In this document: positions 12,821 through 49,640 of the stretch, piece by piece
Layout: each line of letters begins with the position of its first letter
How positions within the stretch are numbered: position 1 is the stretch's first letter
Source: Viridothelium virens
Lineage: Eukaryota > Ascomycota > Dothideomycetes > Trypetheliales > Trypetheliaceae
Direction: 5' to 3'
Assembly: GCA_010094025.1 (NCBI GenBank)
Contig: ML991778.1
Coordinates: 124,001 to 188,000 of the forward strand
DNA: 64,000 nt
The notes under the pieces: model-generated
Database searches by the model: none
The model's input: only the letters and a program-made list of their open reading frames with translations
Told to the model about the DNA's origin: nothing
Made by a program: the position numbers and the translations under genes

Positions 12821-12877
<57 letters not shown>

Positions 12878-22220: not shown

Positions 22221-24086
22221 CTAATCATCCCCCCTCATCCCACACAAATCCGTCCCCAACCAACCATCTAGCCACCAGCACACCCGCCACCACACCCCGG
22301 CCCCTTCCCAATCAAATCCGCCATCCTCGCGACGCGGCACCTGGCTACCAATCACCTCCCACCTCCTTCCCGACGTCCCGTGACCGCTCGCGCCACCGCC
22401 CCCAGCTCCACCACTCTCCACCGCGTCGCTCGGAACCCCGAGCAGGATAGCGAAAAGCACGCCGACGAACGGCAGCGCGACGAGGAAGAGCCTCCAGCCT
22501 GGCTGTGTCGGGAGCACGGCGCTGGTGGCTGGGGCGAGGGTTACGGTGCGGGCGTTGCGGATTCGGAGACGTGGTGCTGCGGTCGGGGATTGGGCCTGGG
22601 GCTGGTGGGGCAACGGCGTGGCTGGTGGAGCAGAGGTAGGGGCAGTAGGAGAGACAGCAGTCGAGTCTGAGGCCGGTCCTGTGTCTGTGAGACCGGAATC
22701 TGGAGCCAAAGCAGAGGGATCCAGTTCGCGGGAGGGAGAGGGAGAGGGGGTGGACGAGTCGGGGGCGCGGTAAGGGGGGTTGATCCGGGTATGTGGTGGC
22801 ATGTTTCTGGCAGAGGGAGTGCCCTCAGGGTATATGTGATAGGTATCGAGTCTGGGTCTTGTAGGTCGCTGTTCCGGCGCCTCGGGGTCCTCGGATGCGT
22901 TTTGGGTTTGCATAAGGGGATGACGCCGGCGACCGCTGGTGGTACGGCGGAGGTTGGGGTATGTGACTTGCTCGGCGCCTCCAGCTGGAGCTGGCGGGGG
23001 AGCTGAAGCTGAAGATCCTGCTGCTGTCGCTGTGGCGGATGATGCTGTTGCTGATGACTCAGGGGAGTCAGGCAGACCACCAGACATGGTGTGGGTAGAT
23101 TGCGAATTTGGAGGCGATTGCGTCCCCATGACCTCTCCATTTGGCGTAGCAAAGATGGACACATCTTGATCCGGACCGACGCCACGGAAGCGTTCGGCAT
23201 ACACCATGTACCCACAAACCTTGTGGGGGCTGGTACGGCATGCGTTGTCTGCTGATTCTGGCGAGTCGAAGGTGACTTTGATCCAATGCTCCCCGCCGAC
23301 ATAGGTATTCTTCTTGCGCAAAGCGGCTTGAGAGAGGCGTGAAAGTGAGGCAGCACGGCTAGCGCTGTTAGCAAAGGTATGGTCGAAGCGACCAGTCGGA
23401 CCCATTCGATCGTAGTCTTCATAGACAATTCCCTGAGAGGCTCTCTCGTAGAAGGCAATGGCTGCCCATTGCTGCTCTGCACCAAAACCGTATAAGATGA
23501 CTTCTGTGGGCTCTTTTGCTACTGCGGTAGCTTGGGCATTAGGCGCCATGTTCGGATCTATCGCCGCGAGCGCATTATCTCTCAAGTCCTCCGCAGTCTT
23601 GTTTTTGTCCCTCACACTGGCCTTCCATTTCTTGACAACCTCATCTTCGGCGCGAATCTGGTCAAGCTTGGCTTGGTCTTCTTTGCGGGCGGGTGTGTAG
23701 GTCCTGCTCCTCGAAATGCTGCGGAGACTTGTAGATTTCCCGAATGGGCCCTTCTCTTCGGGATAGCGACGTTCAGAACTGGAGGGTGGGCATTAGTAGT
23801 GCATTCCAGTGGGAGAGGAATGAAGGTGAACTTACTCGGCGTAGGTATAGCCCCACGGCAACCGTCGCCCCGAGGAGTCGTAGGCTCGTTCATTTTCCGG
23901 GACAGCGTGCACCTGCACACCAGTGCGAATGGCGTTCATGTCGTCGCGAGTCCGGCCAACTCTCCAGCGGCGATGGATTTCCGGGTCGTAAACAATCGGG
24001 TGGACTGCGAACCCCGGAAGACCGGCGTAACCTTGGCGCGGCGAGCCATTAGGGTGGAAGGAAACTGGATCTGATGTCGACCACAT
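22221..24086 (-). CDS. nup53: Nucleoporin Nup53/Asm4 family
   Basis: Exons 23836-24086 and 22221-23778 give 602 aa. After a short N-terminal region rich in charged residues comes a coiled stretch (AKLDQIRAEDEVVKKW) and then the RRM-like MPPN fold characteristic of Nup53/Nup35 (EVILYGFGAEQQWAAIAFYE ... HWIKVTFDS ... GYMVYAERF, about residues 175-280). A Ser/Pro/Ala-rich linker leads to a hydrophobic segment (LFLVALPFVGVLFAILLG, near residue 520) and a Trp-rich C-terminus (VWWRVCWWLDGWLG) that could be an amphipathic membrane-binding helix, as known for Nup53 proteins. Role: inner-ring nuclear-pore component bridging membrane, Nup170/Nup155 and Nic96. Intron 23779-23835 is 57 nt but starts with a stop in frame. 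Another minus-strand frame stays open for 314 codons inside the gene; it is a shadow caused by Pro/Ser/Gln-rich composition. Confidence 0.87.
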
Positions 24087-24620
24087 AAGGGAGCGAACAA
24101 ACTCACGCCAACAATACTAGTCTTTCAGGCAGAACGCGAATTCGGACAAGGTTCTTCTCGAGATCAGAGCGAATCTATCTCGCTCGTTTGAAGGAGAGTA
24201 TTTGACTGCAATTCAAATGATGCAAGGGGGATGCCGGCAGGAGGTTAAGCAAGAAGCCGTACGCTGTTGGATACACAGAAAAGCTCTGGCACTGTCTAAT
24301 TCAAGGTATGGTGAAGTAAAGGATTTTTGGCTCTATTGTCGAGTAACAAGAGTGTCGCTGTACTGTTCTTCACCATCACTCTTGCTAGTCACATCATTAT
24401 ATTTGCTCTCTGTCATCTCACTACAATCCACGACATCTCCATTAAACCTCATGGACGAATGCGCTATCTCTATTAAAGACGGTGAACGTCGCCGGAATTG
24501 TAACAAAGGCAGACTCTTTACATCCATGCATCCGAGCATTCTTCTCACTTTTAACGTCATAATACAGAGATATCCGCATGCAGAACACAGAATTTTCTCT
24601 TCTCCCATTTCCCCTTTACC
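24087..24620. other. Intergenic between methyltransferase 3' end and Nup53 start
   Basis: Both flanking genes are on the minus strand, so this holds the Nup53 promoter and the methyltransferase 3' UTR. No gene seen. Confidence 0.5.
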
Positions 24621-25600
24621 TCACTCTTTCCGTACGCCTCTTGCGAAAAACAAGACCCTCTCCAAATCCTCGTCATTCTTTCCCTTCATCAACGCTTTCG
24701 ATGGGCATGTCTCCCACATGAACTCCTTCAGCCCTGCTCCGGCAAACATCTCTCGCATCTCCGCCTCTACGAACCCGTTGTGCTGCGGATGAATCGTATG
24801 CCCTGCTCCCTCGCTCCGGCGCGGGTGCTCCGGGCTGGGATTATCGTCTCCTTTCTCAACTTCTTTAACCATGTCGATGATGAGTAGGACCCCATTTCCT
24901 GGCTTTAGGAGATCGGTCAGTCGTTGGATCGCGAGGGAGGGAGACGAGAAGTGGTGCACCCCCATACAGATGGCGGCGATGTCGAAATCGGCGGCAGCGA
25001 GAGCAGGGTCAGAACGGAGGGAGGGCCAGGACGCATCGGAGAGGATGTCGCCTTCGATGGCGTGGACTGCAGTAGGCGGCAGACCAACTTCAGATACGCG
25101 CGAGTTGTAGCCGGCAACCATGGCCGGGGAAAGATCGACCCCAAGAATGTTGGTAACGGACGGCCCAAGGGCCTAAGAGATGGAGAGGATGTTAGTTCAG
25201 AATACTGGGATAAGGACCCAGGACGGGGAAGAGAAAGGCGAAGAAGAGATTTCAAGTGATGGTGAAGGAGGATTGAAGCACACTGATATATTAGATACTT
25301 ACCCTCGAAACCAATCCAGTGCCACATGCATAATCAAGCAGTTTGACCTTGTTGTTTTCTTGCTTATCTCTCCATTGTACTCCCAACCATCCAAGACGCT
25401 GACGAATTTCATCGGAAACTTGTTCGATAATCTTCTTCTGCCAGTCCTTTACGTCATAGCTAGAAGCCAATTCGCTGAGAAACCGTCAGTATTTTTCCAT
25501 CTTTGCATCATTTACCGAGCGGTCATAACCAGGAGATTTCACGGACGTACTCGAAGGCTTTTCGGTTTTGTTCAGTGAAATCAATAGGTATGGCCATCAT
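24621..25600 (-). CDS. Class I SAM-dependent methyltransferase
   Basis: Exons 25551-25600, 25303-25474 and 24621-25172 give 774 nt (257 aa). Motif I is LLDYACGTGLVSRAL (about residues 62-76), followed by ILGVDLSPAMV (acidic residue binding the ribose), EGDILS, FDIAAICMGVHHF (motif IV region) and LLKPGNGVLLIID (post-motif). This is the UbiE/Methyltransf-11/25-like small-molecule methyltransferase fold. A tandem ATG starts the frame at 25600; the second ATG could also serve. The first intron is 76 nt and the second 130 nt. No secondary-metabolite genes lie next to it, so the substrate is unknown. The protein is complete for the family; cytosolic, with no signal peptide. Confidence 0.9.
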
Positions 25601-27102: not shown

Positions 27103-28468
27103 TCACGGCATCCCTCCCTTGTCCAGCATCCTCACCATGTCGTTGTCTGCTGCAGTCCTATTCCCCGAACCATCTCCACTCACAATGTCGCTGATGCTCA
27201 TGGCAGAGCGATTGTTGCTGCCACGCCCGTTTGCCGCCGCCGCCGCCTGTTGACCCTGCTGTTGAGGCGGTGGTGTCCGACCGTCGGTTGGCACGGGCAT
27301 GTTTTGGGGAGGTCTCAGATTCGGGTCGTTTGCATAGCTTCCTCCGCCGGGCGTGCTCGAATTGCCTTGGGTGCGCGGGCTGCTGCTCGTCCGGGAGGGA
27401 TCGTAGCTGTAGGCACTTTGGGGCGAAGAGCGTCGCGGCTGGGGCTGCGTGGTATAATATGGTGTCGTCTGTTGAGCTGGCGGACCCGGTTGTGCCGAAT
27501 GGTAGGACGCATTGGAGGATGCGGGCGAGACGGCAGCTGGCGGACCACCGGCAACAACTGTTGGGTCTGGGTAAGTGTACTGCGGTTCAGAGGTACTCGG
27601 CGTACGTTGCGGAAGATGTGAAGACGACGCGGGATTGGGTGGTGGCAGGGTCGGAGTGTGGGGCTCAGCCGCAGGACGCTTCCGTCCAGCGGCCGCAGAA
27701 CGGTCGTCGTACGCAGCGTACGGTGAACCGCTCGAAGCCGATTGTGGGCTAGGGAGTGCATAATTGGAGGGCGCTTGCTGACCTTGGCGGGGTGGTTGGG
27801 CATAAGGATCTTGTTGCTGGTGCTGGGGAGGAAGTGGTTGACCGTATGCGCCGTAGAGAGGAGGCTGTTGGCCATTACGCCAGACAGTATGAGCGGGAAC
27901 GAACGCTTGGGTTTGGGCAGACACGGGTGTGAAGATGCATTCTTGAGAGAAGCGCTGGCAATTGGTGCATCGACCGTCTTCGGATGACTCGAATCCCGAG
28001 CAACGAATCTGTCGATAAAGATTAGCCATGAAACTTCTTCAACCCCAATTCAGGATAGGTATTCACTTTGCGTCGACGGCAGTAACGGCAGGCGATGGCC
28101 GTCCGCTGTCGTGGAGCAGGCTGATGCTGTGGATATGGCATCTGTTGCGGAGGCGGTCGATATGGGTCGTGAGGCGGCGGCGGTCCACGATACATCTCAT
28201 GTGGCGCAGGGAGCCGGTATGGGTCTGGCTGATGGGGATATGTGGCGGTCATGTCGGGTCGCGGTGGTGGATACTGTGGGCCTGGAGGAGGCTGTGACAG
28301 CAGTATTTATGTTAGTGAATGCTCAGTGATCCCGTGATCGAGACGCAAGGCAGAAGGCAAACATACTGGAGCTTGTCGTGGCGGGTAAGTGCCGTTCGGA
28401 GGATGCGAGGTAGGGGAATGCTGTGGCGGGTTCCAGTGCTGACCGGGACCTGGAGGTTGATGGTACAT
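27103..28468 (-). CDS. Zn2Cys6 (Gal4-type) transcription regulator
   Basis: Exons 28367-28468, 28067-28291 and 27103-28008 total 1,233 nt (410 aa). The zinc cluster reads ACRYCRRRK, then after the 58-nt intron 28009-28066 IRCSGFESSEDGRCTNC and FSQECIF: six Cys in the spacing of fungal binuclear clusters, with the intron directly after the first basic stretch. The N-terminus is Pro/His/Tyr-rich and the C-terminus is a Gln/Ser/Pro/Ala-rich disordered tail (QQQGQQAAAAA). No fungal-specific middle homology domain is present, which is unusual for large regulators but fits a conserved short subfamily with the FTPVSAQTQAFVPAHTV motif. The start at 28468 is the first ATG within the exon. An acceptor-like attag precedes this exon, so a non-coding or short coding 5' exon is possible. 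Targets unknown. Confidence 0.85.
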
Positions 28469-33200: not shown

Positions 33201-36200
33201 TGAAGGTCTTGTGACTGCAACTGCAGTACGGAATGAGTAGCAATCCCCCTTTTTGGTGGGCGATCGCGGGAGGATCGGCATACGATGGCCCTCCACAATT
33301 CATCCCGGCAGGCGTGAGAGATGGCCTTTCATGGCTTTGTTTTTGTAGCCGTTCAACGGTACCGATGATAGAAGATGTCGCCTGACGCTAGTAGAGAAAA
33401 TTCAAGAATACCAGGGCAGCAGGAATACCCGCCACTATCGCCGTCCTGGTGTGCAACAACCTCCAAAAAAAAAAAAAGGCCGACCGCTCAATGGCGATGA
33501 TTGATCAGTACTCGTTACAGCATGTAGCAGAACGATTACACGATGACGCAAGCGACGGCAACTCTAATTTTCGCAGGCCGAGGCCGAGGCCGAGGCACAT
33601 GAGATCAGATGGCAATTAGAGAGACGGCGCTAGAACCAGGGGTTTTAAGGTTGCACGTGCGCATTTGGCCTTGGTGTACGGAGTAAGCTTTGAACGGACG
33701 AACAAGTTGAATGTGGGTATGGAACGTCTGACTAAAGATCACGTCTTTCAGATGAGTTGACCGGCCACTGGGCAAGGCTAATTCTCCTGTCTGCCCACGA
33801 CAATGATGACAACAAGGACAGCCGCGGGATGCGCCTATGGTCGATCAAGTGGCCCATCGAGGATCTCCTGCCTTCTCCTCGCCTCTGTGCGTCTCCGCTT
33901 TCTTAGCGACTCTCGGCGAGAGCAGCGGGCCGCCCCGTTTAGTCGGGGGGTAGATAGGCAGTAGGTATCTCCTCTGTACCCAGTACTGTGTTACAAAGTC
34001 ACCGCCGACACCACGAATACTGAGCTCACGATTTGCTCGATTGGGTCTGGGCTCGCATGTCTCTGATGCATCAAAGCGACGGCAAACTAGTCCGGAAACA
34101 GATGCGGCAACACGTGCCCTATCCACTCCATAATAAATCGCTGACACCCGTCTCAAACCGTTGTACGAGGCAGACCGGTCGCTCTCAGATTTTAGGAATC
34201 CTACCTCGTATGCTCGATGCTTTCGTGCTTTCGTGACAACAGATCGCCGTGATCTGCACCACCAATGGTGGGTAACTACTATTTCTCCAGCCTCCAAGGT
34301 ATGGGATTCTTGGGGGGAATTGCCGATGAAACGTTTGGAAACTAGAAAAGGCAGTCCGATGCGGGAACCTGAGACGGTCTGGAAGAATTTCCCACCGCTC
34401 CCGTTCCCATCGCCCGAGCTGGTCCTTGGAGGCACCCCGTTCCTAAAGATGAATGGTACTGTGGGTAATGAGCTGAATGTTGAGAGCCAGCCTGAGTACC
34501 GTTCGAAACAGCGGCCGAAGCCGTTGTTCCATCCAGGATGATTAATTCCGACCTGCACCAAGTGGTACCGCCAAGCTGGGTACTTACCAACCGTGAGGCC
34601 CTTTCCGCCGTTGCAAAACCTTTTCCTCCCTCTTGGCCCTGCCCAAAGGAGATTAAGCGCGTCGGCTACAACCGCCCGTCTCTAACCCCTCGCCCAGCTC
34701 GCCGCTTTTACCTTTCCGTTGACGCCAAGCACCCACGGCACCCCAAGGCTACGCGTCTTGCTCCAGCTTCCCCTGCCGCGCCACGTAGCTCAGCCATCCT
34801 TTCCACCCTTTCCGTGTCTGCACCTTAACTTCACACGGGCATAGACGAGTCACATGCCCATCTAGCGCCGCAGTGTTCCGCACCTGGCCGTCATCGTTGA
34901 CCCACCCAACCGGGCCGATTTGCTATGGTGCCACCGTGCTATGGACCCAGCTGGACGAGGCGACCGAAAGGCGAGACGGGAACGGGCCTGCCCTTGTTTT
35001 CACCTTCCCCCGCAATTTTCTTTGCTTTTTCCCTCAGACAGCTTTACAGGCATTGCGGAATTTTGAGGAGAGAGAGCAGACCAGAAATGAGGCGGAGCTG
35101 GACTCGATCTGTTCATTCTTCTTGACCATCTCCACCATCTCGACTCATCTGCTCACCCAGTGACGGCTGAGTACCTGGCACAGCCCACACTCTTACTTAC
35201 CTCACCAGACCGCCTTGAGAAGATTTTTGGGACCCGCTGTGACCAAGCGCAAAACTAGAAGTCGTGTTTCTAGGGCCCGGAATTTCGATAAAGCGACGAG
35301 TCTAGACGGATCGTGTAGATAATAGCGATACCGGAAGTGCCAGTGGAGCACCCCGCCAAGTCGCTGACGTATGCTCTCAAGTCTTTCGAATTTTCGCAAA
35401 GACTGATCGAGCTATGAGCCGGTGAAGGAAAGAAGCAACATCTCTTGCCTAGTTGATTCACCGACATGCACTTGCGTACAGGCGGATTGCGCAAAGTAGC
35501 CCGTAGACGCCCGATAACTTATTGACCATAGAACGACTGCCCCCCACCCACAAAATCGCAGTAGGGAAGGTACTTAGTTGCATGTACATGTATGTAAGTA
35601 GCATCCATATCGAGACCCGCACGGCATTGTACCCCACTAAACTTTGGTCTACTGCTAGAAGGATGAGATTGCTGGCTCTTCCTGCGAGAGCAATAGTGTG
35701 AGATGGCGGTGTGCACACTCGACAGACGAGTCGTTCTTCTGATTCGTCAGCTGGCGTGAGGGGGCGACCATGGGCATACCTTGGCCCGGAGGCAACAGAT
35801 GGATGGGACGAGTGCTCTCGCTTATAGTCGGCCCTCTCGACACTGGATGCGGCTGTCACTAGGCCTGGCAGAGCTTCTAAACAGTGGAAGGCTAAGGTAC
35901 AAGTGTACGTACCTAATTCTTCGCCCCTGGATCTTGCCGGGGCTTATGAAGTATGCACGGAATAGGAACGAGGATAATAGTGTGATAGGTAGAATGTCAA
36001 TGATGACAGGACGCGGGAGCATCGCAACCCTTATTACCTCATCATTCGGTTTCGGGATCCATTCTAAGTGCATTGGTTGACTAGTAGCTCGGAACAATAA
36101 TTTGCTCAGGTCAAGGTACCTACCCTGCTAAGAATTCGGAGCCATTACGGCAATAGTGGCCTGGAGGCTCCATATCATCCGCTAAGTCACGGTGGGAATT

Positions 36201-36505
36201 AACCCGAAGACGGGAGGTATCAGAGGTTTGTACTCTGTGAGTCTGTAACATCCAGGCTGACGCAAGGACTGTTGAATAGCCTAAGGAATCTGACTACTCC
36301 GTGCCTAGGTACCTATTCTTATCTGGGATCGATGTCTCACGTGTTGCGTGAACGAGTTACTGCATTCGGACATTCGATTTTGATATATACCTATGTGACA
36401 ATTTTGAAAATCTCAACAGAAGTACTACATGCTCAAGTAGATGTACCATGACGTGAACCTTTCCATGAGCCTGCCCAGGTAAGTAAGGTACGTAATGAAA
36501 TCAAA

Positions 36506-39500
36506 TCAGTCGCTATCACCACCAGTCTCGTTGCCTCCTTCTGCGTCACTAATTGCACCCTCGGCTTCCTCTGCGTCTTCGTCTTCATCATCGCTTCCCG
36601 AAGAGGGATCATCCGGCATGACAACGTTGTTGAGGTATGTGATCTATCGAGATACACGTCAGTTCATCGATCCCTCTATCATGCTTGGTCATGAGTTTGC
36701 GTTAGAATAATTGGGCTTTGGTCGCATCAGCAGTATGCACACCATTTGCCGGCGCACGCTACCTGCTGCATCTTGCACATCCAGGCCTCTTCGTGGAAGG
36801 TCTAAACGCCCGAAGTCGCATTGCAGGACGAGGCGTATTAATCAAATCGACGGAGAAGGACCTCCCAGAAGCTGGTACACTAAGAGACAGAGCCAATGCA
36901 CGGCATCGGCGCGGCCCATCGGTGTACTCCGTTGGCCAACTGCAAGCGCCCAGAAGGAAGCCTTCTCCTGAGAGATGCTCCGTTCCAGAGGTGACACGTT
37001 CTCGATCATAAGTATGGCTTGACCACACCAAGCAGCCCCCGCAATCTGCATGCACCTCGCCGTACGATGGCGCAAAATGGTACAGTATGCGAGTGCAATG
37101 CGCGGATCCGCTTCCCAAGCCACTCAAGGCGGAAGATGAGTGAGATGCGAATGACTCGAGAGGCTACGGCGACGGTGGGTGATATGTGATGGTGGCACAA
37201 GGTAGGGAGGGATGATGGGCAAAGCACTAAGAAGGGGAGTGGAGGCACTACGGGAGGATTACTTACGAAGGGTACCATGCATGAAACTATGTCCGCAATG
37301 CGTTGTAAACCCTGAGGGCCAACCACCTCCTCGTCCGGTAGCTTCCTCCCTACCGTAAAGTTCTTTAATTTGAGCAGCTCAATGTTGGGGTGATCGGCTT
37401 CGTATCCCTGAAACGAGAGCACGAAGGGTTAGTAAAAAAAAACCTCTGAACGCCAAAGGGTTCGAATTTGAAAGTTTTGAAAAAACTAGAGTGAGTCGAG
37501 AGAAAAGCTGGGAGGTGGGCTATTCCTTCGGTGGGGAGGGATCCGGGAAGGCACAAGGCCGGCTTGTTTTGACCAAGCGGCAGAGCATAGGGACGCTGTC
37601 GACTCAATCAAACGCCAACCACCATGCTCGGGTTGGCGTCCAAATTGGATGGTCAGCATTCGAACTGTGGCGTGTGAGGCATCATGCCCATCCAAGGTGA
37701 CTCTGATGGGAACCACGGCTTGCTTCATGCAGCACCATGGACTTGTTGTGTTGTAGGTAGCTCGTCCTCGGTTCCAAACTCTTAGCCTCTTCGGGGGGCT
37801 AGCATCCCGTCAACACTGCACCTTCGTCCCTCGCCATCCTCTTTCCAAGGACGGAGACTGGCAGAGCGACTCAAAGGCAAGGGAGCATTCATCATCACAT
37901 CCAGAAGAGTGGTATTGCATCCGGATCGCTGGCCTCGAGCAACGTCGTGCAACAGCCAACAGCGCTTACTCAAGCCTCATCCGATTTTGTCCATGAGCAG
38001 GATGGAAAATCCGGCTGTGCGACTGGATAATCCATGGGCACGCTATACTTACCGCGTATCGCACTTCCTACTATTTGTGGTTGCTGATGAATGAAAATCA
38101 AGTGTAGGCTTACCTTCGGCTTCGTCTTCAAAGCATTCCCCGAATTGAGTCCTGCAAACGCGTGCACTGCCTTCTTCTCGTCCTTGCCGATGCCTCCCAA
38201 GAACTCTTTGCGCATACCTGCATCACTCAAGACGGCTTTGATGCGATGTGGTTTCCGATCGATGTCGCGGCGAAGGGCTGCCAGGGGACCTGCCTCTGGC
38301 ATCCACAACCCGCCCCCTGTGATCCGAAAGCCTACGTCAGTCCCAATTCGAACGATCTTTGGAATACGGCCATCATGTGTCGCGGCTGGACGCCTCATAG
38401 GGTGCTGAGATCGAGATTATAAGAGTGTGTGTGCTTGACGTGCAGATTGCGACCGCGTGGTAATCACACGCCTGAGGAAGAAGGCCAACTGAACGCTCGT
38501 TACACCATTGCACGCCCAAATCACTGTGCTTCCCTCGAGCTATGTAGCCGCTTGCCGTGGACTGGCGCAGTAGATGGTTGCAGCACGGCTCCTGCTGACA
38601 GTGACTGAGACTTCAGTCAAAACCCAGCAGGGGTACTCGTAGGCAAAGCATTATCCATGGTGACCCGAATCATGATGCACTTGAAGATAATGCTATCTAA
38701 AAGCGCGTACGTGATGGCTCTACGATCTTATGCTGATGGAAAGAAACAGCTTTCGAAGACACCTTCTCCTCTCTCCCGTCCCAAATTTCCAGGCATTATA
38801 GTCAGCCTGAAGTACTAAGGAATATCGATCAATTCAAAGAGGAGGCGAACAATAGTGATTGAAAAGTCTTCTTGGCTGGCAGGCGTGAGTGCGGCGAGCC
38901 TATGATTCCTCACCGTCGGCCTGACCTGAATACTGTTTCTTGGTGTAGGGAGCAGAAAAGGTCTGAACGCTTATAAATCTAGCAATCCATAGCTCCAGGT
39001 TAGGGAAGCCATCCTCGTATTCTGCGAAGATATCGACTATCGCGTACAGAGGGTACCCTAAGATAATAGTACCCACTGCTGGAAGGCCATGGTAGATCAG
39101 GCAGTCGATATACGGAGAGTCTTGCGATAAGGGGGACAAGTCGGGAGGGGGGCAAGTAAGCTAGGGAAGATCGTCTTACCTACGAAGCTATCTCCAGGGG
39201 CAATTTGTACGTAGTAGGCAGCGTATGGACCTTTGCGACCGGTCCTTGACCTTCCTAGTGTTAGCTAATTTCATGCGTCCAGAACGCAACAATCTTACCA
39301 CGCTGCCGAGAAATGTGTCTTTCAGAGACTGCTATCAGCAAAAGTTTCATTCTTCCTGGCCAGACTAGTGAATGCGGCATACCTTGTAAGGGGTAGGGTC
39401 CGGACTGAAGCGGATATCACGGTATATTCGAAATACCTGGTCTGATTAGGAAGGGAGCGTTCTGGCTAGGGTAGCAGAAGCTCTTTCAACTCACGATATC

Positions 39501-40193
39501 CTTGAAGGGCAGCTCAGGAACAGTTTCATCAGCTTCACTGATTTTGGGGGAGAGCGCCTCCGCAAAACTCTTGAAATCTCGTTCTGCTTGGCGAAATTCA
39601 GGGTCGTTCATTTTAAGCCACTCCCGGTCATTGTTCTCCTTCAGATCCTTCAAAAAGAGCAACGTGTTTGGATGAATGCTGTCGTCCGTATACGGGGTAT
39701 CTCCAGCCTGTCTTGGTTTGGGCTTCTTTATAACGACTTGATTGCCAGGACCCAAGCCTGCTTTGACTCCTTGCCTCCATAACTCCTTGCCATTTGCGCC
39801 TTTGGGGGCTCCACCTAGCTGATTCTTTTGACCTCTTCCTTTCGCCCGCTTCTTAGTCTTCGTATCGTCGCTAGTAGAGTAATCTTCATCGACGTCATCC
39901 GAGTCAGATGGAGAGGGGATGACACTCTCGTCCTCATCCTCGTATCCAGATCCCTCCTCCGCAACAGAAGTCTCAGGCTCAGAAAGCTCATCCTCTGCAG
40001 TCACTTCGTCCTGCTCCTCATGTTGAAAGTGTTGGCTCTTCTTAGGCGTCACTTTGACCTTGGGAGTCTGATCGCTAGCTTTCGCACGCTTTGACTGGCG
40101 GATCGGAGTAGAAGTGGCTCCCGAAGCTCTTTTGCGAGACGAGGTGGGTGGTGTCGTGTTAGCGGATGCTTTTCGTGGTCTCCCTCGAGGCAT
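36506..40193 (-). CDS. DUF2461-family protein with three very long introns
   Basis: Exons 39495-40193, 39383-39436, 39299-39318, 39180-39250, 38114-38316, 37267-37407 and 36506-36643 total 1,326 nt (441 aa). The N-terminus starts with an AT-hook-like PRGRPRK, followed by a Lys/Glu/Ser/Asp-rich region (nuclear-like). DUF2461 begins near residue 180: LFLKDLKENNDREWLK, then FRIYRDIRFSPDPTPYK, HFSAAW, GPYAAYYVQIAPG, FVGGGLWMPE, FTVGRKLPDEEV. An acidic tail ends the protein. The family is widespread in bacteria and fungi with no established activity. Three introns are 48-64 nt, but the other three are 863 (38317-39179), 706 (37408-38113) and 623 nt (36644-37266), exceptional for this genome. All have normal GT donors and AG acceptors, and the conserved domain is continuous across them. 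Divergent from TYW3. Confidence 0.88.
36644..37266 (-). other. 623-nt intron in DUF2461 gene
   Basis: Donor gtaagt, acceptor tcgatag. Splicing joins MVPF to ITYLNNVVMPDD, continuing the family's C-terminus. Confidence 0.78.
37408..38113 (-). other. 706-nt intron in DUF2461 gene
   Basis: Donor gtaagc, acceptor gtttcag after a pyrimidine tract. An internal gtaagt occurs about 60 nt after the donor. No coding signal. Confidence 0.8.
38317..39179 (-). other. 863-nt intron in DUF2461 gene
   Basis: Donor gtaaga, acceptor ggatcacag with actgac branch-like sequence about 20 nt upstream. A 79-codon frame on the same strand (38900-39139) lies inside, without a recognisable domain. No transposon ends seen by eye. 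Confidence 0.8.
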
Positions 40194-40431
40194 TTCGTAT
40201 ATGCAATTGCTGTGAATTGGGCAAAAATTAGATCTGATGAGTCTCTTGAAGTCCCGTAAAATTCCAGCCAAGCGGATAGCAGCAGATCTCACGCGTTCGT
40301 GGGGGTGCGGACTGCACCCAACAGCCTGGTCGTGGCTGAAACTCGATCGGACATGTCTCCGATCTCTCTTCTCCATCCTTCACCCACCGTGCCACCTTGG
40401 GGTTAAACTTGGGAGAACACACTCACAAACC
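40194..40431. promoter_or_regulatory. Bidirectional promoter, DUF2461 gene / TYW3
   Basis: The two start codons are 238 bp apart and head-to-head, so both promoters must lie here. No obvious TATA box was picked out. Confidence 0.6.
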
Positions 40432-41474
40432 ATGTCAAGGCCACGCGCCTTTGCAACCAGAAAGAACCAAATCATGCACAAGCTTGGGGTGGATAGTTCT
40501 AGTTACTCGGACAAGTCACCCAAAGGTAGTGTGGATGAGCAAATCGTCGACCTCATCCAAGACATAAATGCCATTGATGGCCTTGTTACAACCAGCAGCT
40601 GCGCGGGGAGGATCAGTGTCTTCTTGGACAGTCTTAATCGCATGCAAAGTGCCCAAAAGCCTCAAAAAGATGCACATGAAAATAGCATAGAAGACATCAA
40701 CCAGGAACGTGGACGATGGCTTTTCTCATCTCATACACCTCTTGATATACAACATGCGCCAACAGAAACCCCTGAAATCATGACACTGTTTAGCCTCCAC
40801 CGGCTGGAGCAAAAAGGCGAAAATGATAATATTCTTTCAAGCGCCGAGTCGATCTCTCGTCGTCGGTGTATCCATTTTAAATTCGAACCAATGGTACAAA
40901 AGCTCCAATCCAAGAACTTCGACATCAAGGATTCGCCTGGCACTAACGCCTTTAAATACAGATCCTTCACATTGCCACAGCATCTTTGGAGGATACACAG
41001 AAAGTTCTGACTACAGCAATCAGTGCCGGGTTCCGTGAAAGTGGAGCTGTCAATTTCGACTTGGGACCAGATGGAACGATCGCGCCAATGGTTGCCGTAA
41101 GATCAACAGGACTGGCATCTGATACCGTCATAGGCTATCAAGATTCTTCAGGACTTCCTTTGAGCATAGTAGACGAAAGTTATTTACGCGCCTTGGTGAG
41201 CGTTGCCAATGATCGCTTTCTTGTGAATCAAGAGCGAATAGACAGATTCAGATCCGCTCTAAAGGACAAATACAACGATTCGGCCCATGGGACCAAACGG
41301 TCCTCCAATCGGGAGAATCGTGCATTAAGAAAGGATATGAAACGCGCTGAAGGCCTTCGGCGACAAATGATGGAGCGTAGAACGAGAGCACACGAAGCAA
41401 CTGGCTTCCAGACTAATGCTATAGACAAAGAGGAATACTCTTCTCTCGAATATGGCCTTGGCTTGCCCGAATGA
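40432..41474 (+). CDS. tyw3: tRNA wybutosine-synthesizing protein 3 (TYW3)
   Basis: Exons 40432-40893 and 40962-41474 give 324 aa. Family hallmarks: SPKGSVDEQI near the N-terminus, the conserved TTSSCAGRISVF stretch, then RCIHFKFEPMILHIATASL spanning the intron, and SAGFRESGA. TYW3 methylates the N4 position of the wybutosine precursor (yW-86) at G37 of tRNA-Phe using SAM, a step of the wyosine pathway after TYW1 and TYW2; cytosolic. The 68-nt intron 40894-40961 is phase 0 and removing it restores KFEPMILH. The C-terminal part is Lys/Arg/Glu-rich and helical, common in fungal versions. Shares its promoter region with the DUF2461 gene. Confidence 0.93.
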
Positions 41475-47339: not shown

Positions 47340-49640
47340 TTGTGTGCAGAGAAGCAGACTATAAGCACGCGCAAAGCGAAACCACCCGAAGTCCGTAGAA
47401 GTGCGCGCCTGAAAGTATCCTCACAACTTAAGGGTAGGAGCAGAAGAAAGCGACCGGAAATGGCTTATCATCGGCCAATAAAGCTTTGCGGGATTAAGTG
47501 GTAGGTATCTCTCTGGTTATGCTGGCTACCTACTGATTATGACTATGTTCCAGCAATCCAGTACTTCCATTAAGTCTTCCTTAAAACAAAAAAGAGGCCA
47601 AGAGGCTTCTTATCTCTCCCTTCCAGCCCAAGATTCACTACCTTTAAAGCGGCCTTCAAGGTCGACTCGACACATGGCAGAGGGACGACTATAAAAGACT
47701 GAAAAGCATATTGGCATAAGTGTTGACAACCTGCTTTAGAGCTGGGTACAGAACAGGACGTGGCCTCCTGAGTACTTTGAAGCAGATGACCGCGCGCGAG
47801 AAGAGCTTCTGGAACACAATAGCTGGCTAGAAGAGATTATGGCACAGCCACCTATTCCGGACGTCTAATATATGGAAAGAAATGGATTTAGATATCCACT
47901 GCCTATTAAAAAGGCTCGCGTATCGCTTTGTTAAAAGCAATCAGATTTGACTCTGACCGGATTTAGTGACTAGGAGAGGGAAAGCAAGAGCGCGCCATAT
48001 CAAGATTTACGTTATACTATGATGCTTGAAACCAAAGGCAGTTTCTTACGTGACTTCAACCACAAAATCCCTTAGGCTATCACAGACATGTGTCACCAGC
48101 TGCTTGATAAAGACCAGATTGTGCCTCAGAACTCCTTGTTCCGCGATGACCTTTTCGGCAGACTTTGCTGGAAAATACAAGAAAGGAACGAAGCGATGAT
48201 CATTCAAGACGTCAGTCGCTTAATTGTTCTGTCGGCGATGAATTTAGCAATTTACGGTGACACACATCTTGATATTTTGACAGAGAGTGTTAATAAAGCC
48301 TGGATAAGTAGCATTCCAGTGGAGGGTCCTAGGCCACAACCGGACTTTACCGTCGGGTTCAACCAATCCTTATTCATGATGGAACAGCTGAAAAAGCTCG
48401 ATCCACTTACTGACAGTGTCTTTGATACCTCGTTTTTTGTTGCAACCTACCGGATGTATTTTCCGTTTCTCACCTGCGAAGTTAAGTGCGGCACTGTGGC
48501 GCTTGATGTTGCCAACCGACAGAATGCCCATAGCATGATAATTGCTGTGAGAAGCATTGTTGAGCTCTACAAAGCCGTAAAGCGAGAAAAAGAGCTTAAC
48601 CAAGGGATCCTCGCCTTTTCTGTCTCGCATGATTACTGATTAGTTTGTATCTACAGTCACTATCCTGTTATTGATAGAGAAAAAGTCACATTCTACCGGC
48701 ATTTAATTCATAAATTCAGCTTTGATGAAATAAATGGAAAAAAGAAATGGACAACTTTTAAGTTCATCAAAAACGTCTATAATATTTGGATGCCGACTCA
48801 CCTCAAACAAATGTGCTAAGCTGTTGAGCAACTACTACTAAACCTTGACTTTCAAGTCTCTGAAAGGTCTGAAGTGCAATCTGAGGCGGCAACTGGTCCA
48901 TCACAAGACATGGAGAGCCTTTTTTCGGACCCAAATAATATCGACCTTGTTTCGCAGGCAGATGATAAGCTGAATCATATTCCGCAAACAGCTACCCCAG
49001 ACACCTTGGTTTCCAAAGGAGTGGGCCAAGGGGCAGCCAAAAGGGCGAAGAAACCCCGACTCACGAAGTAGCGGATGGTTTGTTGCACAGAATATCTTCA
49101 GCCCTCAAGGAGTTCTGGGTCGGAAGTGACAGTGGCAAAGATGAATGGACATCCTATCAATTCACGCTGAATTTCTGTCAGATGTTTGCCTTACCACTCG
49201 TCGAACGCCTCAAGGCTGTGATTAACGAGTTATCTGATCCAATTTCTCAATCATCGGAGCTGGCCGCCACCTTCGACGACGTTAGTGTGCAAGGCTCGTA
49301 GGATGATTTAAGCATACCGGCATTTTAGGATGAGAACTTTAAGAAGCCACGCAACGTCAGGGGTCTAAACGCGGAGCTGCGAAACACGATACAGATGTTG
49401 CAGCGACAAGTGGAGCGTCAGGCCGAGGATGCAGATTGACAGCAACACGAGGCGAAAGAGAGACACTGTTATTGGCGCAACTCGAGCAGCAACAGAAGAA
49501 GTCAGAGCAGCAGCTGAACAAGCTCGTGGGAATGCCGAAAGACTAAGGAGAGGAAATCAAAGGGCAAAGAGCACAAATCGAAGGACTCTTGCCAAGAGCA
49601 CACTCCGCGCAACAGGGTACCAATTCGAATATAGCTGATC
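47340..49640 (+). pseudogene. DUF7924-family gene, decayed
   Basis: One reading frame can be followed for 1.5 kb through many stops: TAG at about 47501 just before an intron (about 47504-47553), then PSRSTRHMAEGRL, HIGISVDNLL, WPPEYFEADDRARE, SWLEEIMAQPPIP, FRYPLPIKKARVSL, LETKGSFLRDF, an open stretch with VPQNSLFRDDLFG, YRMYFPFLTCEVKCG, RQNAHSMIIAVRS and KREKELNQGILAFS, then YSHYPVID and KNVYNIWMPTHL. At least nine in-frame stops occur, most where Gln or Arg is expected (CAG to TAG, CAA to TAA, CGA to TGA). The frame changes near 49060-49080 and again after 49430. The tail (SALKEFWVGSDSGKDEW, then a Gln/Glu coiled coil) matches the usual C-terminus. The C-to-T bias suggests repeat-induced point mutation. 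DUF7924 proteins are multi-copy fungal proteins of unknown function. Confidence 0.85.

Follow-up and report, generated by a model that had tools for sequence, protein, structure and literature searches.

Why one small conserved gene should carry three consecutive introns of 623–863 nt is the question raised by the DUF2461 gene in the window, by which we mean the whole 64,000-nt stretch of DNA that was analyzed. Rebuilt independently from the sequence, this gene lies on the minus strand (40193..36506) and consists of seven exons with 441 codons plus a stop. The rebuild reproduces the gene described in an earlier note on this DNA, in which 442 codons had been counted with the stop included: the intron lengths given there (58, 64, 48, 863, 706, and 623 nt) are all exact, and the interval that it had singled out, 36644–39179, is the exact span of the last three introns. 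The parts of the gene, and one window within intron 4 that is discussed further below, are as follows.

39495..40193, minus strand: exon 1, 699 nt, with the start codon and a low-complexity N-terminal part, and in which DUF2461 begins
39494–39437, minus strand: intron 1, 58 nt
39383..39436, minus strand: exon 2, 54 nt
39382–39319, minus strand: intron 2, 64 nt
39299..39318, minus strand: exon 3, 20 nt
39298–39251, minus strand: intron 3, 48 nt
39180..39250, minus strand: exon 4, 71 nt
38317..39179, minus strand: intron 4, 863 nt, phase 1, with donor GTAAGA, branch motif CTGAC, and acceptor CAG
38114..38316, minus strand: exon 5, 203 nt
37408..38113, minus strand: intron 5, 706 nt, phase 0, with donor GTAAGC, branch motif CTAAC, and acceptor CAG
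37267..37407, minus strand: exon 6, 141 nt
36644..37266, minus strand: intron 6, 623 nt, phase 0, with donor GTAAGT, branch motif CTGAC, and acceptor TAG
36506..36643, minus strand: exon 7, 138 nt, encoding ITYLNNVVMP and an acidic tail, with the stop codon
38587..38706, both strands: best-folding 120-nt window, in intron 4 (against shuffles, z is −3.9 for the gene strand and −4.5 for the opposite one)

Introns 4–6 show the features of U2-type spliceosomal introns: GT..AG borders, a branch motif (CTRAC) near the acceptor, which starts 24, 25, and 19 nt from the end of introns 4, 5, and 6, respectively, and coding sequence that is contiguous across the join. Divergent from the DUF2461 gene lies a gene for TYW3 (wybutosine synthesis), with ~240 bp between the start codons (40193–40432, where the TYW3 start is a candidate), and the two genes may share a promoter region. 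Farther away in the window, we observe a perfect TC dinucleotide run of 24.5 copies at 12824–12872 and a DUF7924 gene at 48076–48639 (E 1.5e-66). DUF7924 is a family of filamentous ascomycetes, and together with the style of the introns, this gene suggests that the DNA comes from such a fungus.

The joins can be judged from the protein. When the genome (30.7 Mb, 175 contigs) is searched in six frames with PF09365, all four matches fall at this locus, the best of them at 56.8 bits, and this is the one DUF2461 locus in the genome. Once the exons are joined (250 of the 441 residues), the same model gives one match of 250.1 bits that covers positions 1–208 of 208. A scan of prokaryote genomes with this 250-residue part yields 20 related bacterial loci, nine of which were taken into the alignment to the fungal protein. 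In 9/9 of these homologues, the three long joins are free of gaps, with sequences of SFV/GGGLWMP at intron 4, KPK/GYEADHP at intron 5, and VPF/ITYLNNVVMP at intron 6. The last join needed extra care because it falls at the final positions of the Pfam model. Across it, the bacterial locus L036 reads MVPFVEYLNTVLLPP and the fungal model reads MVPFITYLNNVVMPD, and exon 7 is supported by this match. The claim of the earlier note that DUF2461 coding sequence is contiguous on both sides of the long introns is thus borne out by nine gapless homologues and by the full span of PF09365. No DUF2461 homologue was found in a scan of viral contigs and no solved structure at E≤0.1, while the DUF2461 literature that we found, insofar as it was accessible, consists of bacterial and phage work.

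For a view of intron lengths in this genome, we used 59 exon-to-exon gaps from three family searches, with rows chosen by eye (64/139 kinase, 30/45 Ras, and 18/23 proteasome) and gaps taken between neighbors on the same contig and strand. The 34 gaps that change frame, which we take as introns, have a median estimated length of 61 nt and a maximum of 286 nt, the latter including 14 unmatched model positions. Only one of them is longer than 250 nt and none is longer than 600 nt, a count of 0/34 that is compatible with several percent of long introns in a sample biased to conserved domains. The remaining 25/59 gaps keep to a single open frame, as either stop-free introns or coding inserts might; the three largest of these (321, 498, and 627) are taken as coding inserts. 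Six frame-changing neighbors of ~55–110 nt in a fourth family were read by eye and stand outside the scripted count, and also left out are PF00083 (two neighboring pairs with gaps of 51 and 48 nt in the same open frame), PF00270 (one pair with a gap of 156 nt in the same open frame), and PF00106 (none). Because the frame-changing gaps in this genome have a median of 61 nt and a maximum of 286 nt, three introns of more than 600 nt in one gene are unusual, and the contention of the earlier note that they are far longer than usual for the genome holds against all 34 frame-changing gaps. In the accessible part of a study of 226 Fusarium core genes, intron lengths span 42–529 nt around a median of 57 nt, with a greater average length for first introns (PMC5677156). 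Long introns are normal in some fungi, with means of 469 bp in Candida glabrata and 426 bp in Pseudozyma hubeiensis according to the portion of another study that was available (PMC8476143).

A home-made gene finder was also tried as a source of an intron-length distribution and rejected. Its first version merged whole regions into single genes, and over the window together with 200 kb of contig C1, the share of introns longer than 500 nt is 16/99, 8/64, or 28/78 by penalty setting. At least one of its long introns (1470 nt) is false and skips exon 6 of the DUF2461 gene. We do not base the rarity claim on its output; against the 48–130 nt that the earlier note gives for almost every other intron in the window, this crude finder places, at one setting, 14/19 window introns at 130 nt or less. 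The middle setting predicts introns of 939 and 412 nt in two other genes (22221–25597 and 27103–28468); these may be joins of neighboring genes, or the window may contain further long introns.

The interiors of the long introns appear to be non-coding. Coding scores of introns 4–6 are negative in all frames on both strands, while exons 1, 5, 6, and 7 (the only ones scored) all have positive values when read in their own frame (45.1, 9.1, 3.5, and 5.7, respectively). Ten intron open reading frames of 69–134 aa have no match in Pfam except for one at E 0.032, which is under its cut-off, and a coding or antisense gene within the introns is rejected on these negative scores and the absence of an accepted Pfam match. 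An 86-aa open stretch at 39160–38903 on the gene strand, which looked protein-like by eye, was likewise set aside (no Pfam match, best 90-nt score of 3.5). The best 90-nt score in any of the introns is 4.6 (intron 6, gene strand) versus 4.1 in an intergenic control, and real 90-nt windows of exon 1 score 2.3–11.4; because 4.6 falls within this range, short exons inside the introns are compatible with the coding score alone. A tRNA search found none. In composition, introns 4–6 have a G+C content of 0.50–0.55 and a CpG ratio of 0.79–0.90, close to the values of 0.52 and 0.89 for the window. In the non-coding DNA downstream of the gene (35500–36500), several short GGTACCTA-like palindromes can be seen by eye.

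Our preferred reading, to which we give a probability of roughly 0.72, is that these are three ordinary U2-type introns of a conserved gene that have been swollen by unrecognizable single-copy non-coding DNA. By every sequence test made, introns 4–6 are genuine and long for this genome, with no cause of the length detected, and the reading rests directly on exact motif borders, contiguous protein, non-coding interiors, and no second copy found in the genome. The case is real and uncommon, yet most likely ordinary. Each long intron would be excised as a single unit in one splicing reaction, and the swelling probably reflects DNA that accumulated neutrally or insertions that have decayed. Splicing of the long introns is probably less efficient than that of the usual introns of ~60 nt, an expectation that follows from fungi recognizing splice sites mainly across the intron; intron definition is described as the main fungal mode in the accessible portions of two studies (PMC2397502, PMC12403724). 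Two observations go against this reading: rare long introns swelling independently would not readily occur three in a row, so that something specific to this gene may be at work, and there are signs of folding, in that intron 5 folds better than 20/20 shuffles and the window at 38587–38706 reaches z of −3.9/−4.5.

The extra DNA may have come from mobile elements that entered short introns long ago and have since lost similarity to their source. The size of the introns and their clustering in a single gene would fit such decayed transposon or introner-like insertions, and the absence of copies is compatible with decay. Against it, introns 4, 5, and 6 each match only themselves in the 30.7-Mb genome, and the stretch 34700–39180 gives self-matches only, even at E≤10, in a similarity search that ignores very common words and scores only the best candidates. 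The transposon or introner cause proposed in the earlier note finds no support in this whole-genome search. Direct and inverted repeats inside the gene are short (12–24 nt), among the repeats listed, none forms a terminal inverted pair close to an intron end, and the two longest inverted pairs listed (22–24 nt) are merely 73–75% complementary. The ten intron reading frames without an accepted Pfam match also count against this origin. The TA/AT ratio points both ways: intron 4 stands at 0.84 versus 0.67 for the window, although the downstream DNA is at 0.93, and introns 5 and 6 are at just 0.53 and 0.61. We hold decayed insertions to be possible but doubtful; this origin overlaps with our preferred reading, in which the extra DNA may have any source, and our estimates for the two are not mutually exclusive. 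The length could instead be maintained by a structured or guide RNA hosted in at least one intron, and 45/55 C/D snoRNA genes of Neurospora are intron-encoded, whereas just 2/20 of its H/ACA genes are intronic (PMC2780460, from the part of the study at hand). In the window, however, nothing matches Rfam over the gathering score, and a loose search of 35400–40400 gives four weak matches only (E 0.22–7.8), all far under gathering, including one to the snR40 model (16.9 bits, gathering 50) that overlaps exon 5 and the start of intron 5. The earlier note had seen no C/D-box motifs, and indeed a strict box C/D pair is absent from both strands of introns 4–6, while a relaxed scan of the six intron strands has no match on the gene strand and a lone match on the antisense strand of intron 4, which 26/200 shuffles equal. 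On the gene strand of intron 5, two overlapping C-like boxes occur with no D box at a suitable distance, and a loose H/ACA box pattern has 0–9 matches per intron strand, counted without a control. Folding is more favorable to a hosted RNA: at z of −3.9/−4.5, the window at 38587–38706 is extreme relative to random windows of contig C1 (among 700, a single one was as low as −3.9 and none as low as −4.4) and to 114 windows taken downstream of the gene (lowest −3.1). It is one strong place and modest evidence because 124 intron windows were scanned, and no hinge or ACA box is seen in it by eye. For whole introns, the folding z is −0.59, −1.96, and +0.37 in introns 4, 5, and 6, with 8/20, 0/20, and 12/20 shuffles folding as well, such that intron 5 alone speaks for structure. 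Given the Rfam result and the lack of a strict C/D pair, a hosted RNA, which the earlier note had named as a possible cause, strikes us as improbable.

Two further alternatives concern how the introns are removed. In nested or stepwise splicing, internal introns would leave first and the outer sites would then be brought together. Donor splits were tested at five places per intron, and 0/15 produce a canonical internal donor, while 1/15 produces a bare GT (GTAATC in intron 6); a donor-split stwintron is thus impossible in introns 4 and 5 and would require a weak donor in intron 6. Together with outer branch and acceptor motifs that are intact (by reading of the gene model rather than by script), this tells against the nested or twin introns that had been suggested as a cause. 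An internal GTAAGT in the 706-nt intron, which had been thought to fit recursive or nested splicing, is real. It lies at 38052, 61 nt downstream of the real donor, and is no ratchet point because it is preceded by CG rather than AG. There is no AG/GTRAG ratchet site in introns 4–6, and on the gene strand of introns 5 and 6, no internal acceptor with a branch motif occurs by the criteria applied (shuffle means of 2.4 and 2.0), so that the motif stands but its proposed role finds no support. The 38052 site could act as an alternative donor, with which 61 nt would be added and the frame shifted, the frame being open through the site. Most favorable to nested splicing is intron 4, whose gene strand has five internal acceptors with a branch motif, four candidate internal introns (shuffle mean 1.4), and four candidate cassette exons (shuffle mean 2.5), but these last two counts are reached by 42 and 82 of 300 shuffles, respectively, and the antisense control has eight candidate introns, more than the gene strand. 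We judge nested or stepwise splicing to be very improbable. Structure-assisted splicing would have a long-range helix on the branch-to-acceptor segment join the ends of each long intron. In predicted folds, this segment does lie in a long-range helix in 3/3 long introns, with 12 pairs to nucleotides 8–24 in intron 4, 14 pairs in intron 5, and 15 pairs in intron 6, at pair probabilities of about 0.72–0.98. Shuffles do nearly as well, and the helices are not significant against them: the long-range pairs are reached by 19, 15, and 6 of 80 dinucleotide shuffles with fixed ends (introns 4, 5, and 6), and the donor-to-branch distance in the fold is at or below the observed one in 33, 50, and 47 of 80. 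Duplex strength against shuffled upstream sequence has p of 0.40, 0.03, and 0.07, and 36%, 6%, and 55% of other segments of the same intron are equally strong. In intron 6, the helix covers the branch motif too (4 of its 15 pairs). A 12-bp end-to-end helix is predicted in intron 4, which 4/80 shuffles reach, and introns 5 and 6 have none; end-to-end structure was striking at first and was dropped, as shuffles are nearly equal. We therefore see little chance that such helices explain the long introns. It is also unlikely, in our estimation, that the length of all three introns is maintained by a single gene-specific cause, namely control through slow or structure-dependent removal by a spliceosome tuned to introns of ~60 nt.

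Whichever cause applies, reading from the preceding exon into a retained intron reaches a stop after 27, 47, and 86 codons for introns 4, 5, and 6, respectively, as read from the sequence. The DUF2461 domain would be cut short if intron 4 or 5 were retained, whereas retention of intron 6 would keep the domain nearly whole and replace the acidic tail with 86 other residues. Only intron 6 could be retained with the domain nearly spared because the match already extends to model position 206/208 by the end of exon 6. If gene-specific control were true, retention of the last intron would lead to a stable isoform in which the DUF2461 domain is nearly intact and the tail is a different one of 86 residues. 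With ordinary swollen introns, as we prefer, the locus has other uses: a gene with introns of 623–863 nt beside introns of 48–64 nt is a natural test of how fungal splicing handles length, and gene finders that expect fungal introns to be short would split it. Beyond this length test and the warning for annotation, we see no pointer to a new kind of element.

When compared to known systems, the long DUF2461 introns resemble the stwintrons of ascomycetes in being long intervening sequences in an apparent ascomycete, but unlike stwintrons, they have no canonical split donor or split acceptor and their branch motif is intact. Published sister stwintrons are sequence-similar copies, one set being 185 nt in length (PMC12403724, as far as the source was available), whereas the DUF2461 introns are single-copy and longer. 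With introners, they share unexplained intron DNA, yet introners copy themselves into many genes, according to the accessible part of the source (PMC9860276), and the long introns here are single-copy. The host genes of intronic snoRNAs in Neurospora are similar in having several introns per gene that are able to hold RNAs, judging from the available part of that study (PMC2780460), but the gene strand of DUF2461 has no C/D pair and no Rfam family at gathering score. Feature by feature, they can also be likened to the long U2-type introns of filamentous ascomycetes. At 623–863 nt, the DUF2461 introns are past the 42–529 nt range of the Fusarium core genes, and they are the last three of six, whereas in Fusarium, it is the first introns that are longer on average (PMC5677156, same portion as above). 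What they have in common with such introns is the GTRNGN donor, the CTRAY branch motif, the YAG acceptor, and a protein that is contiguous across the join.
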